Source: Pseudomonadota bacterium
GTDB lineage: Bacteria > Pseudomonadota > Alphaproteobacteria > Micropepsales > Micropepsaceae
NCBI GenBank assembly: GCA_021851325.1
Contig: JAJZDZ010000002.1
Coordinates: 1-64,000, forward strand
Direction of reading: 5' to 3'
DNA length: 64,000 nt
The notes under the pieces are model-generated. The model was not told the DNA's origin, ran no database searches, and worked only from the letters and a program-made list of their open reading frames with translations. Of this stretch, positions 1 through 5,219 are shown in pieces. The position numbers were made by a program, and so were the translations under genes. Position 1 is the stretch's first letter; each line of letters opens with the position of its first letter.

Positions 1-1683
1 GACCTCTCAGCCACCGTCAAGGCCTACTTTGCCCTGAAGATGATTGGTGATGACCCCGAGGACCCACACATGCGTCGCGCCCGCCAGGCCATCCTGGATG
101 CGGGAGGCGCGCGCAAAGCCAATGTCTTCACCCGCATACAGCTGGCGCTCTATGGCGACTGTTCGTGGCAGGATACGCCCACCGTTCCTGCCGAACTGAT
201 CCTTCTGCCACGCTGGTTTCCCATTCACCTGTCCAAGATGAGCTATTGGGCACGCACCGTGATCGTTCCACTTTTGGTGCTGCAATCTGAAAAGCCCATG
301 GCGAAAAACCCGCGCGGGGTACATGTGCCGGAGCTGTTTCTGCCCAAAGGAAGCAGAGCGCATTTGCGTGCCGCCCATCAAAATCCCTACTGGGCCGCAT
401 TTTTTGGCGCGCTTGACGTCATCCTCAAGACCCTGGAGCCGGTCTGGCCCAAAAGGTTGCGTCAGCGGGCCATCGACGCCTGTCTGACGTTCGTGCGCGA
501 GCGCCTCAATGGCGAGGATGGTCTTGGTGCCATCTATCCGGCCATGGCCAACAGCGTGATGATGTTCGACTGCCTGGGCTATCCTCCCACCCATCCCGAC
601 CGCGCGATCGCGCGCAAGTCGGTGGAAAACCTGCTCGTGGTCAAGGAGGACGAAGCCTATTGCCAGCCATGCGTCTCCCCGGTGTGGGATACCGCACTCA
701 CCTGCCATGCGCTCCTGGAGGCCAATGCGGACACGGCCCTGGCCGCGGTCCGCCGTGGTCTTGACTGGCTCAAGCCCCTGCAGGTCCTCGAACTGAAGGG
801 CGACTGGGCCGAGTGGCGCCCGCACGTCCGCCCGGGCGGCTGGGCCTTCCAGTACAACAATCCTCACTATGTCGATCTCGATGATACAGCCGTCGTGGTC
901 ATGGCCCTCGAGCGCGCCCAGCACGCGATCGGCCCTGATCCAGACGCGCCCGAAGCAATTGCCCGTGGCGCCGAATGGATCGTGGGCCTGCAGAGCCGTA
1001 ACGGTGGCTTTGCCGCGTTTGATGCCGATAACACCTATCATTATCTCAACAACATTCCCTTTGCCGATCATGGCGCTCTGCTTGATCCGCCGACCGAAGA
1101 CGTCACCGGACGCTGTCTTGGAATGCTGGCGCAGTTGGGAGAAGCCAAGGACAGCCCCAGAATGAGGCAGGCAATCGACTATCTGGCGCGAACCCAGCTC
1201 AAGGATGGCAGCTGGTTCGGGCGCTGGGGGGTCAATTATATCTATGGTACGTGGTCGGCGTTGTGTGGCCTGCATGCTGCGGGGATTGCACCCGAACACC
1301 CGATGCTGAAAAAGGCCGCCGACTGGCTGATCGCCATCCAGAATGAAGATGGTGGCTGGGGTGAAGACTGCAGCAGCTACAAACTTGACTATAAAGGTTA
1401 TGAACGGGCGCCATCCACCGCGTCACAGACGGCCTGGGCGTTGCTCGGTCTGATGGCAGCAGGCCAGGTCGATCATCCGTCGGTTGCCCGCGGCATCGAA
1501 TATCTGCACACCAGCCAGAACGCCGACGGCCTGTGGGACCAGGACCATTATACCGGTGGTGGTTTTCCGCGCGTCTTCTATCTGCGCTACCACGGCTATC
1601 CAAAATTTTTCCCGCTTTGGGCCCTTGCCCGGTATCGCAATTTGCGTACCTCCAACACCCGCTCGGTTGCCTTCGGTCTATGA
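1..1683 (+). CDS. shc: Squalene-hopene cyclase, 5'-truncated by window edge
   Basis: Cyclises squalene to hopene/hopanol, the committed step of hopanoid synthesis, as a monotopic membrane enzyme. The frame is open from base 1, so the ATG at 40 is internal; about 560 codons are visible against a usual 650-720, so roughly the first 100-150 residues lie outside. The catalytic DxDD motif is seen as DLDDTA at bases 874-891. Several QW repeats are present, such as GGFAAFDADN, GSWFGRWG, DGGWGEDCSS and DGLWDQDHYTGGGFP near the C-terminus. Its stop overlaps the hpnG start (ATGA), which implies translational coupling in a hopanoid operon. Identification is firm. Confidence 0.97.
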   Translation, partial: DLSATVKAYFALKMIGDDPEDPHMRRARQAILDAGGARKANVFTRIQLALYGDCSWQDTPTVPAELILLPRWFPIHLSKMSYWARTVIVPLLVLQSEKPMAKNPRGVHVPELFLPKGSRAHLRAAHQNPYWAAFFGALDVILKTLEPVWPKRLRQRAIDACLTFVRERLNGEDGLGAIYPAMANSVMMFDCLGYPPTHPDRAIARKSVENLLVVKEDEAYCQPCVSPVWDTALTCHALLEANADTALAAVRRGLDWLKPLQVLELKGDWAEWRPHVRPGGWAFQYNNPHYVDLDDTAVVVMALERAQHAIGPDPDAPEAIARGAEWIVGLQSRNGGFAAFDADNTYHYLNNIPFADHGALLDPPTEDVTGRCLGMLAQLGEAKDSPRMRQAIDYLARTQLKDGSWFGRWGVNYIYGTWSALCGLHAAGIAPEHPMLKKAADWLIAIQNEDGGWGEDCSSYKLDYKGYERAPSTASQTAWALLGLMAAGQVDHPSVARGIEYLHTSQNADGLWDQDHYTGGGFPRVFYLRYHGYPKFFPLWALARYRNLRTSNTRSVAFGL

Positions 1684-2348
1684 CAGGTCTTGTTGCCGTT
1701 ACCGGAATGCGGCGCGAAGCCAGATGCTTTGGCAGCGATTGTGAAATCGTCCTGTCCGGTGGCGGAGATAATCATGGACTCGCCGCACGCCTTGAGGCCG
1801 CCATTGCGCGCGGCGGACGCGCCGTTCTGTCTGCTGGCCTATGTGGTGGACTTGATCCGGAGCTTGGACCAGGCCACGTCATCCTTGCCACGGCCATCAT
1901 TGGTACAGGCACGCGTTTTGTCTGCGACGCACGCTGGCGGGCCCTCATGGGCGAAAGCCTCGCCGCGGTCGAAGGCCCGCTTGCGGGCAGCGATCGCATC
2001 GTCGGGTTGCCGGAACAGAAGGCACAGTTGCGGGCCGCCACCGGAGCGCTCGGCGTGGATCTCGAATCCCATATCGCCGCCGAGGTCGCGGCGCGCCACG
2101 GGCTTCCCTTTTGTGCACTCAGAGTGATTGCAGACGGCGCAGCGCATAGCCTGCCACCAGCTGTACATGTGGCGATGACAGCCGAGGGCGACGTCTCGCT
2201 GCCGCGCCTGCTGGGGGCGCTTGCGCGTCAGCCAGGACAACTCGGGGAACTCATCGCCACCGGCTGGCGGGCCCATACGGCCTTTTCCAGCCTATTCCGC
2301 AGCCTGCGCCTTCTTGGTGTCGGGTTTGCTTGCCCTTATCTCGGCTAG
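1680..2348 (+). CDS. hpnG: Hopanoid-associated nucleosidase/phosphorylase HpnG
   Basis: A 222-residue nucleoside phosphorylase-superfamily protein. HpnG is known to remove adenine from adenosylhopane, giving ribosylhopane in bacteriohopanepolyol synthesis. Seen here: a glycine-rich early segment (SAGLCGGLDP), and the family's VDLESH stretch followed by FCALRVIADGA. The start at 1680 is chosen because its ATG overlaps the shc stop as ATGA; a longer upstream frame would run deep into shc. Its 3' end overlaps the oppositely oriented hpnH by 57 bases. Its substrate HpnH product is made by the next gene, which supports the role. Confidence 0.85.
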   Translation: MTGLVAVTGMRREARCFGSDCEIVLSGGGDNHGLAARLEAAIARGGRAVLSAGLCGGLDPELGPGHVILATAIIGTGTRFVCDARWRALMGESLAAVEGPLAGSDRIVGLPEQKAQLRAATGALGVDLESHIAAEVAARHGLPFCALRVIADGAAHSLPPAVHVAMTAEGDVSLPRLLGALARQPGQLGELIATGWRAHTAFSSLFRSLRLLGVGFACPYLG

Positions 2349-3452
2349 CTTGTTCTCGACATGACGCGAAAATACATATTCAGCCGGGCGCTGGTGCGAC
2401 AGATCGATATCGGGTGCCATTGGCCCTTCGGTACGCACGCCGTTGCGGTGTAGCCCCACCAGTTTCCAGGGATGGCGCACGGAATCGGCCACTGCAGTGC
2501 CCTCGAAACCGCAGTGAACCATGCAGTTGGCGCACTTCTCATAGTTGCCGACGCCATACTTGTCCCAGTCGGTATCTTCCATCAGCTCTTTGAAGGTCTT
2601 CACATAGCCTTCGCCAAGCAGATAGCAGGGCTTCTGCCAGCCGAATACGCAACGCAGTGGCATCGACCAAGGCGAGCATTCGTATGTCTGATTGCCAGCC
2701 AGAAAATCCAGGAAGAGATCGGACTGGGTAAAGTCCCATTTCTTTCCACCATCGCCGCGGCGCAAGATGTCACGGAAGAGATTGCGGGTACGCTCGCGGT
2801 TAAGGAAGTGCTCCTGATCTGGCGCACGCTCATAGGCATAACCCGGGGAAACCGTAATGCCATCCACACCCATCGCCATCACGTTATCGAAGAAATTGGC
2901 GGTACGCTCGGGATCGGCGTCGTTGAAGAGCGTGCAGTTGATCTGCACCCGGAAGCCCTTTTGCTTGGCGAGCTTGATCGCGGCAACCGCCTTCTCATAG
3001 GTGCCGTCCTGACACACCGACTTGTCGTGCATCGCCTTGTCGCCGTCGAGATGGATCGACCATGTAAAGTTGGGGTGTGGCTGATACTGATCGATCTTCT
3101 TGGCCAGCAGCAGGGCGTTGGTGCAGAGAATGACGAACTTCTTGCGCGCGATATAGCCTTTGACGATCTGGGGCATTTCACGATGCAGCAGCGGCTCGCC
3201 GCCGGCAATCGACACCGCTGGTGCGCCACACTCATCTATCGCCTGCATGCATTCATCATAGGACAGACGCTGGTTGAGGATGTCATCGGGATAGTCGATT
3301 TTGCCGCAGCCGGCGCACGCCAGATTGCAGCGGAACAAGGGCTCCAGCATCAGCACCAGCGGATAGCGCTTGCGGCCCATTACGTGCTGCTTCGCGACAT
3401 AGGCCCCTATACGGGCAGCCTGCTTAAACGGAATCGGCACTGAACGCTCCAT
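2292..3452 (-). CDS. hpnH: Adenosyl-hopene transferase HpnH (radical SAM)
   Basis: A 386-residue radical SAM enzyme that joins a 5'-deoxyadenosyl group to diploptene to form adenosylhopane, the first side-chain step. The cluster-binding CxxxCxxC motif is at C42, C46 and C49 (RCNLACAGCG), within the family context LVLMLEPLF before it and KIDYPDD after it. A C-terminal Cys-containing segment (CANCMVHCGFEG) is also present. It is transcribed against shc-hpnG and the last 57 bases are shared with the hpnG 3' end. Upstream lies a decayed ispH remnant. Confidence is high from the near-canonical length and motifs. Confidence 0.95.
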   Translation of the reverse strand: MERSVPIPFKQAARIGAYVAKQHVMGRKRYPLVLMLEPLFRCNLACAGCGKIDYPDDILNQRLSYDECMQAIDECGAPAVSIAGGEPLLHREMPQIVKGYIARKKFVILCTNALLLAKKIDQYQPHPNFTWSIHLDGDKAMHDKSVCQDGTYEKAVAAIKLAKQKGFRVQINCTLFNDADPERTANFFDNVMAMGVDGITVSPGYAYERAPDQEHFLNRERTRNLFRDILRRGDGGKKWDFTQSDLFLDFLAGNQTYECSPWSMPLRCVFGWQKPCYLLGEGYVKTFKELMEDTDWDKYGVGNYEKCANCMVHCGFEGTAVADSVRHPWKLVGLHRNGVRTEGPMAPDIDLSHQRPAEYVFSRHVENKLAEIRASKPDTKKAQAAE

Positions 3453-3888
3453 GCTTCACGTCCGCAGCGGGCGAACGCTCGGTTATGTTCTGAGTCTTGC
3501 TGGACGACGAAAGGCGATTGGGTTCCCCTTTGCCATCCATCTGACTCTCTTCCAGCTCCGGGTCGCGGTCACACCCGATCGCGATCTCATCCACTTCCTG
3601 GCCCTCAAACGCCGCGGCACCAGCGGTCAGTTTTCCCATCTGCTTGCCAATTGGCCAAGCGGGGTCAGGTGCTGCAGCGCTGGCGCGGAGATAACTCGGA
3701 ACGCCGCTTTCATCGCTGATCTCGCGCAGGCGGTTGGAGTTGGAGCTGTACGGGCCCGACTACTAGAACAATGTCGGCAATCTTGCAAAGCTCGTGTGCG
3801 GCCTCCTGCCGGTCGGGGGTGACACCGCTGGGAGGCCGCCGCCAACAGCCCGCGAACGAATCTTGAAGACGACCTGCCTCATCCTGCT
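3424..3888 (-). pseudogene. ispH: Remnant of ispH (HMBPP reductase), C-terminal part only, frameshifted
   Basis: On the minus strand two frames together read like the C-terminal third of IspH. Frame one (from about 3888 to 3752) gives RLQDSFAG, then TPDRQEAAHELCKIADIVLVVGP. The frame then shifts by one base near 3751, and the second frame (3750 to 3424) gives YSSNSNRLREISDESGVPSY and later GKLTAGAA. Intact IspH has the same order: (T)NRQEA, VVG, NSSNSNRL, then a TAGAS segment. The N-terminal two thirds, with the first iron-sulfur cysteines, is absent upstream, and a stop lies at about 3889. IspH sits beside hopanoid genes in some bacteria, so the location fits. A functional copy must be elsewhere if the organism uses the MEP pathway (inference). 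Confidence 0.72.
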
Positions 3889-4301
3889 ATTTTAAATAGA
3901 ATCAAATACTTGTTCATATCGGCAGGGCGAGGCCTCAGGTTCGCAATCCGCCCTGCCCGCTTGGCCTGCCCATCTCAACCATATAAGAAGTATGGGTAAT
4001 AGCGTGGCCACAAGGCGATCAACTGACAGCGCAGGCGCAGGCCAACGCATACAGGCGGCCGCGGCCCAGCTGCCCCGTCACAGAGCTGAGGTAACATGGC
4101 CGAGCGAGAACACTCCGACGTCTCCGCGAGCGGCGTCCTGCGCTGTCGACGGTACTGGGAGCATGCCGCGATTGTGCTGCAGGCGTGAGACAAGTCGGAT
4201 CGACAGAGGCATCCGTTTTGGCGTAGCAGCGGTGGAGGATTTGCTCTACAGCCTGCTCGCTCCAGCCACACAGAGACCATCCAGCCAATCAGGGAAACAT
4301 C
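3889..4301. other. Gene-free stretch between ispH remnant and ispA
   Basis: No frame here has a recognisable product. It includes an AT-rich patch around 3888-3912 that stands out from the GC-rich surroundings. The frames open across 3992-4411 and 3975-4280 give compositionally random, Arg/Ser-rich translations. The missing 5' part of ispH is not visible here. It may be decayed sequence carrying the promoter of the downstream prenyl synthase. Confidence 0.6.
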
Positions 4302-5219
4302 ATGACGGGTGTAAACGGGGACGCGGGCGCGTCCGTCGACATGTTAGAGGTCCTCAAAGCCGCATCAGGAGCGGTGGAAGGCGAGATGGAACGTCTGGTT
4401 CCAGCCTCTGAGGCATTGCACGGGCGCATTCACGACGCCATGCGCTACGCTCTTTTTGCGGGTGGAAAGCGCCTGCGTCCGTTTCTCGTCAGCCAGAGCG
4501 CCAAGCTGTTCGCCGTCGAGCCTTCCCGCGCCCTTCGCGTCGGCGCCGCCATTGAATGCTTGCATACCTATTCGCTGGTTCACGACGATCTTCCCTGCAT
4601 GGATGATGATGATCTGCGTCGTGGCCGCCCTACCACCCATCGCGCCTTCGATGAAGCGACCGCAGTTCTGGCGGGTGATGCCCTTTTGACTGTCGCCTTC
4701 GAGATCCTGGCGGCAGAACCCACACATCCTGATCCTGGTGTACGCTGCCGGCTGGTCGAAGAATTGGCGAAGGCAGCAGGACGTGACGGGATGATCGGGG
4801 GACAGATGGTCGACATGCTGGCGGCGCAGCGCGCCTTTGGCGCCGACGAGATTGTCTTGCTGCAACAGATGAAGACCGGCGCTCTGTTTGAATTTTGCTG
4901 CACGGCAGGCGCCATACTCGGCCAGGCGCGCCCGGACGAGGTGACGCGGCTGCGCACATATGCGCGTGACATCGGGCTGATCTTCCAGATCACCGATGAT
5001 CTTCTCGACGTGCTTTCAACCGCGGACAAAGCCGGCAAAGCGGTAGGAAAGGACGCCGCCGCGGGCAAGGCCACGCTCGTCTCCCTATGGGGTGTGGACG
5101 CCGCACGGACTAAGGCCACCGAGCTTGCAGACCATGCCATCGAACTCCTGCGTCCCTATGGCACAACGGCCGCGGAACTTGTCGCTCTGCCGAAATTTCT
5201 GCTTGCACGGGAAAGCTGA
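4302..5219 (+). CDS. ispA: Farnesyl diphosphate synthase (short-chain polyprenyl synthetase)
   Basis: A 305-residue trans-prenyltransferase that condenses IPP with DMAPP/GPP to make farnesyl diphosphate, the precursor of squalene and hence hopanoids. The first Asp-rich motif lies at residues 95-104 (DDLPCMDDDD, followed by LRRG), the second at 232-236 (DDLLD). GGKRLRP at about 54-60 is the IPP-binding Arg region. The tyrosine just before the first motif (HTYSLVHDD) matches IspA-type enzymes. The ATG at 4302 gives a normal-length N-terminus. It lies between the ispH remnant and mlaA, consistent with supplying the hopanoid pathway. Confidence 0.92.
   Translation: MTGVNGDAGASVDMLEVLKAASGAVEGEMERLVPASEALHGRIHDAMRYALFAGGKRLRPFLVSQSAKLFAVEPSRALRVGAAIECLHTYSLVHDDLPCMDDDDLRRGRPTTHRAFDEATAVLAGDALLTVAFEILAAEPTHPDPGVRCRLVEELAKAAGRDGMIGGQMVDMLAAQRAFGADEIVLLQQMKTGALFEFCCTAGAILGQARPDEVTRLRTYARDIGLIFQITDDLLDVLSTADKAGKAVGKDAAAGKATLVSLWGVDAARTKATELADHAIELLRPYGTTAAELVALPKFLLARES

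Follow-up and report, generated by a model that had tools for sequence, protein, structure and literature searches.

A decaying ispH gene next to hpnH and opposite losses of two IspH lineages within one genus of Micropepsaceae

In subdivision 1 Acidobacteria, ispH forms a gene cluster with shc and hpnH (shc-hpnH-ispH), as described previously (PMC5462960). Mycobacterium tuberculosis carries two LytB homologues, which according to the title of that report are not genetically redundant (PMC4550268). Here we describe an alphaproteobacterial locus in which the ispH directly upstream of hpnH is dead, and the fate of a second ispH across the genus. The window is the whole 64,000-nucleotide stretch that was analysed, positions 1 to 64,000 of contig JAJZDZ010000002.1 (assembly GCA_021851325.1); the genome it comes from, here called G000, comprises 3.53 Mb in 103 contigs and is 98% complete. 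We searched 40 relatives, including 24 of the same genus, and the genus counts below are out of 25 genomes, with G000 included.

The ispH remnant beside hpnH

Translation of all minus-strand frames between positions 3400 and 4310 gave the motif ...DRQEAAHELCKIADIVLVVGP in one frame and ...SGPYSSNSNRLREISDESGVPSYL...GKLTAGAAA in the next frame, in agreement with the original prediction that two minus-strand frames reproduce the order of the IspH motifs. When each frame was compared singly with the Pfam LYTB model, the scores were 16.1 bits (E 0.0072) and 12.8 bits (E 0.072), both under the cut-off of 24.5 bits; the motif reading therefore required independent support, which was supplied by the relatives. 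Aligned as DNA with the intact ispH of the relative G005, the 3′ part of the remnant scored 327, while the maximum of 300 dinucleotide shuffles was 59. The alignment with a relative's ispH is thus significant, and the 3′ part is similar to the IspH family (PF02401).

The 3′ third of the gene lies on the minus strand at about 3483-3823, with the former IspH stop near 3483. The frame shift predicted at about 3751 does displace the frame by one base, and is precisely a 2-base loss relative to G005. With this break, an extra 1-base insertion near 3522 and an eroded 5′ half, the remnant cannot be read as a single frame of about 300 residues. Nor are the three conserved cysteines (C12, C96, and C194 in G005 numbering) retained: the C194 codon falls in a 55-base gap, and the C12 and C96 regions are eroded or lost.

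Most of the first 580 bases of ispH are lost in G000. The 3′ third is the readable part, as predicted; the N-terminal two thirds, said to be missing, are eroded and shortened, not cleanly absent, since the 5′ stretch at 3822-4212 scored 72 against the matching stretch of G023, a second genus member (0 of 300 shuffles that high, maximum 43). The start of the G023 ispH is still detectable (76 against G005 bases 1-152; 0 of 300 shuffles, maximum 40), and the direct comparison of the 5′ stretch between G000 and G005 was weaker, at 47 (0 of 300 shuffles, maximum 41; reverse-strand control 26). The G023 start codon aligns opposite about 4106 of G000, while a low-gap-cost direct alignment of G000 with G005 puts the start elsewhere, near 4065; because the alignments differ, the 5′ limit of the remnant is approximate. 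The remnant thus extends further than the proposed interval of 3424-3888, to about 4106, and below 3452 the sequence is already hpnH coding (Table 1). From the alignments, both dead copies (G000 and G023) seem to have lost a sizeable internal segment beyond about base 150, whose exact ends are unreadable where the cheap-gap alignments fragment.

Table 1. Features of the hpnH-ispH region (positions in the window)
Feature	Position	Strand	Remarks
Whole ispH remnant, hpnH-linked lineage	3483..4106	-	alignments with G023 and G005; 5′ limit approximate
Readable piece 1, corresponding to G005 ispH bases 586-657 (about residues 196-219)	3752..3823	-	81% identical to G005
Readable piece 2, past the 2-base loss, corresponding to G005 ispH bases 660 to stop	3483..3751	-	1-base insertion near 3522
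Conserved stretch inside the remnant, possible hpnH cis element, unproven	3690..3813	-	G000 versus G023
hpnH (radical SAM, DUF3463), intact, downstream neighbour	2292..3452	-	
Polyprenyl synthetase (ispA-like), divergent neighbour	4302..5219	+	same place in 18 of 20 complete genus loci
Phosphorylase-family gene, taken as hpnG from its position and family	1533..2348	+	convergent with hpnH, overlapping; start not settled

Every genus genome except G002 had a strong HpnH match (24 of 25). In the 20 genus genomes that gave a complete hpnH-linked ispH, hpnH is the next gene downstream in 19, the contig of G012 ending there, and the divergent ispA-like gene lies upstream in 18; in G008 and G011 the hpnH-linked ispH is split over contig ends. 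An intact orthologue therefore occupies the slot of the remnant in relatives, in the order ispA (divergent), ispH, hpnH. This gene order, with the copy of G023 also decayed, upholds the proposal that the decayed ispH once belonged to it.

Several further details of these loci were recorded. The hpnG and hpnH frames converge with a 57-base overlap (window 2292-2348), over which G000 and G023 are 98% identical. The hpnH match of G003 (L020, G003:C218:35947-37101) contains one internal TAG. Contig G011:C170 (L073:4385-4911) holds residues 1-102 of the hpnH-linked ispH after which residues 1-34 recur at the contig end, a repeat that is probably an assembly artefact.

The same slot holds a dead ispH in G023, whose HpnH is 99% identical to that of G000, and an intact one in G005 (HpnH 96% identical), where contig C135 carries hpnH, ispH, ispA, and mlaA together; G005 is the only near relative with an intact copy, and its assembly is fragmented, with 8% contamination. 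In a MAFFT alignment, both dead copies have the same 55-base gap, which spans G005 bases 533-587 and removes the conserved Cys194 codon, the alignment behind this common gap being poor on its 5′ side. The lesion of G000 near 3751 is private, because G023 is without 6 bases at the place of the 2-base loss. Over bases 570-923, identity by codon position between G000 and G023 was 78/109, 80/109, and 84/108, compared with 91/111, 85/111, and 76/113 for G000 versus G005, and 84/109, 84/109, and 74/108 for G023 versus G005; the living gene hpnH gave 0.979, 1.000, and 0.694. Judged from these counts, the dead copies have no coding signature between them and a fading one against the living G005 gene. 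The flat identities of G000 and G023 are those of a pseudogene freed of coding constraint after inactivation.

Two IspH lineages across the genus

A search for an intact ispH elsewhere in G000, as had been suggested, found one: the only above-threshold PF02401 match, at C37:105179-106012, is unbroken, scores 313.6 bits and covers all positions of the model except the first and the last. Its product closely resembles IspH chains of known structure (best 3ke8_A, E 4e-109), and thrB and rnhA follow downstream. The ispG family and the Dxr N-terminal-domain family are represented once each in G000, which therefore appears to depend on the pathway requiring IspH.

The surviving IspH is 53% identical to the hpnH-linked protein of G005, whereas its identity to the thrB-linked copies of G023 and G005 is 94-95%. 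A maximum-likelihood tree was built from 51 IspH sequences, all from one class. In it the hpnH-linked proteins (25 rows, five of them from other families within the class) and the thrB-type and other alphaproteobacterial proteins (26 rows) fell on opposite sides with 100/100 support, and the surviving G000 gene clustered with its thrB-linked counterparts in G023 and G005 (100/99). Both intact copy types have C12, C96, C194, H41, H74, H124, and E126, which we take to be catalytic or cluster residues and which are among the columns invariant in the 51 rows. Among the matches listed, the nearest ispH was that of the metagenome-assembled "Proteobacteria bacterium isolate SZAS-36" (78%), then those of Parvibaculum (74% and 72%), with one match each in SZAS-36 and two Parvibaculum genomes. 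On G022:C64 (L070), rnhA directly follows ispH, and the genome has no ThrB match.

Among the 25 genus genomes, the thrB-linked copy stands alone in three and the hpnH-linked copy in 17 (including the two split by contig ends), five have both copies whole (G004, G005, G013, G020, and G022), and none has neither. The thrB-linked copy is whole in eight (G000, G002, G004, G005, G013, G020, G022, and G023). A fragment of it persists in G007, where residues 1-68 are fused to residues 281-321 immediately before thrB (L188:2759-3066, G007:C1; E ~1e-11), and a weaker one in G019, where what is left is the final 32-35 residues (best E 2e-4). An N-terminal thrB-linked fragment (E 6e-5) also occurs in G034, which belongs to another family. 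In the remaining 15 of the 17, no thrB-linked fragment was detected at E 0.05 in the upstream flank of thrB, taken to a length of up to 1500 bases, and from this absence, in assemblies 74-100% complete, we infer that the thrB-linked copy was lost there as well. Different species have thus lost different copies, and none of the 25 has lost both; the opposite losses (3/17/5/0) therefore point to differential loss of two redundant IspH lineages. G002, the sole genus genome without an HpnH match, keeps only the thrB-linked ispH, which may reflect hopanoid loss or an assembly gap.

Explanations of the remnant and its conserved stretch

We conclude with high confidence that in the remnant the hpnH-linked ispH has become a pseudogene that is decaying where it stood, the two redundant IspH lineages having been lost differentially. 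Seen directly in the genomes are the remnant in its slot, a second and intact copy, the existence of two lineages, the common decay, and the mirror-image fragments. An ancestor would have had two ispH genes that were only distantly related but presumably interchangeable: one stood immediately before hpnH, the other in the ispH-thrB-rnhA cluster that is general among alphaproteobacteria. With the two enzymes presumably having the same activity, either copy would have been dispensable. The hpnH-linked copy would have been inactivated before G000 and G023 split and its 5′ half lost since, with the thrB-linked copy supplying HMBPP reductase in this lineage, while most other species of the genus would have lost the thrB-linked copy instead, leaving the fragments of G007 and G019. 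This order of lesions and the neutrality of the loss are presumed, the 5′ half being too eroded for the order of events to be read.

A sequencing or assembly error near 3751, with the gene intact in the organism, might be entertained for a genome in 103 contigs and a change of only 2 bases, but the lesions are many, most of the first 580 bases being gone, and G000 and G023 have diverged equally at all codon positions. An assembly slip is made unlikely by a second species, G023, whose ispH is also dead in this slot and shows the same 55-base gap; we give this explanation very little credence. Relocation, in which the copy on C37 is the former neighbour of hpnH, would fit the presence of exactly one intact ispH, sited elsewhere in the genome. 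However, the 53% identity to the hpnH-linked IspH of G005, against 94-95% to the thrB-linked copies, and the separate lineage (100/100) mean that the surviving gene is not the hpnH neighbour moved, and G004, G005, G013, G020, and G022 hold both. On identity and tree we reject relocation as most improbable; of the original suggestion that the gene had been replaced or relocated, replacement stands, the survivor being of a separate, deep lineage linked to thrB and rnhA. Similarly, the 71-codon frame open at 3424-3639 could be read as a new short gene, but G023 has no matching frame, on which ground we rejected the candidate, and the codon positions are flat between the dead copies, so that such a gene is hardly to be expected.

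The pseudogene explanation leaves one feature of the remnant to be considered, its uneven conservation. In the pairwise alignment, identity between G000 and G023 was 92% in 3690-3813 (118 aligned of 124 bases), 82% in 3453-3570, and 68% in 3571-3689, while the three-way MAFFT alignment gave 84% for the first of these stretches, with flat codon positions (31/37, 29/37, and 34/38). Coding third positions of the two genomes averaged 0.61-0.72 over six genes, and the gaps between genes were 66% identical for the convergent ispA-mlaA gap and 82-93% upstream of genes, where promoters are expected. The excess conservation of 3690-3813 over synonymous sites is not predicted by plain neutral decay, and part of the dead ispH may have been kept as the promoter or leader of hpnH, with 3690-3813 under selection as DNA and the pseudogene acting as a control region. 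The 92% identity, set against the third positions and matching the promoter-type gaps, argues for this, as do the third positions against the still-coding G005 gene (32/40). However, among 40-codon windows at third positions, none of 388 reached 0.89 but five reached 0.84, the MAFFT value, and the 80% against G005 was attained by 5 of 222 windows; moreover, the stretch was picked after inspection of the data, from a single informative species pair. Four-fold identity was not raised there in the 20 intact genus ispH genes (0.52-0.61 versus 0.57 overall), which speaks against a control region and led us to reject a regulatory element embedded genus-wide. No promoter consensus match lies in 3690-3813, the sole match being outside, at 3916-3889 (1 found, 0.4 expected); the terminator consensus scan found 1 where 0.9 were expected, and Rfam gave no match at the gathering score, with two implausible matches far below it at E up to 1. 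Overall, we consider retention as a control region unlikely, though worth keeping in mind as a tentative possibility.

Significance and relation to known systems

Pseudogene formation by loss of a redundant copy is of a well-known kind, and the interesting part is the reciprocal record within one genus. The genus provides a natural series for an essential enzyme, with both IspH lineages together, either alone, and the corpses of each (G000 and G023 for one; G007 and, weakly, G019 for the other). This series makes it testable whether hopanoid-linked and housekeeping IspH differ or whether the linkage to hpnH is mere gene order. It also calls for caution in synteny-based pathway prediction, as an ispH next to hpnH is not to be taken for granted. 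If the conserved stretch does act on hpnH, a hopanoid gene would have a pseudogene for its control region. In a partial literature search, which included PMC12583986, PMC5462960, PMC10134818, and PMC13001223, we found no case of opposite losses of two IspH lineages in a hopanoid producer.

Compared with the IspH/LytB family (HMBPP reductase, PF02401), the remnant aligns with the C-terminal third, but its frame is interrupted, and both the N-terminal half and the Cys194 codon are lacking. As in the acidobacterial cluster (PMC5462960), ispH clusters with hpnH in this genus and in five genomes of other families (G030, G031, G034, G037, and G039); unlike that cluster, ispH is dead here in two species of the genus. 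The presence of two IspH homologues per bacterial genome is shared with M. tuberculosis, but in contrast to the lack of redundancy stated in the title of that report (PMC4550268), the losses on either side in this genus suggest that the two copies are redundant.
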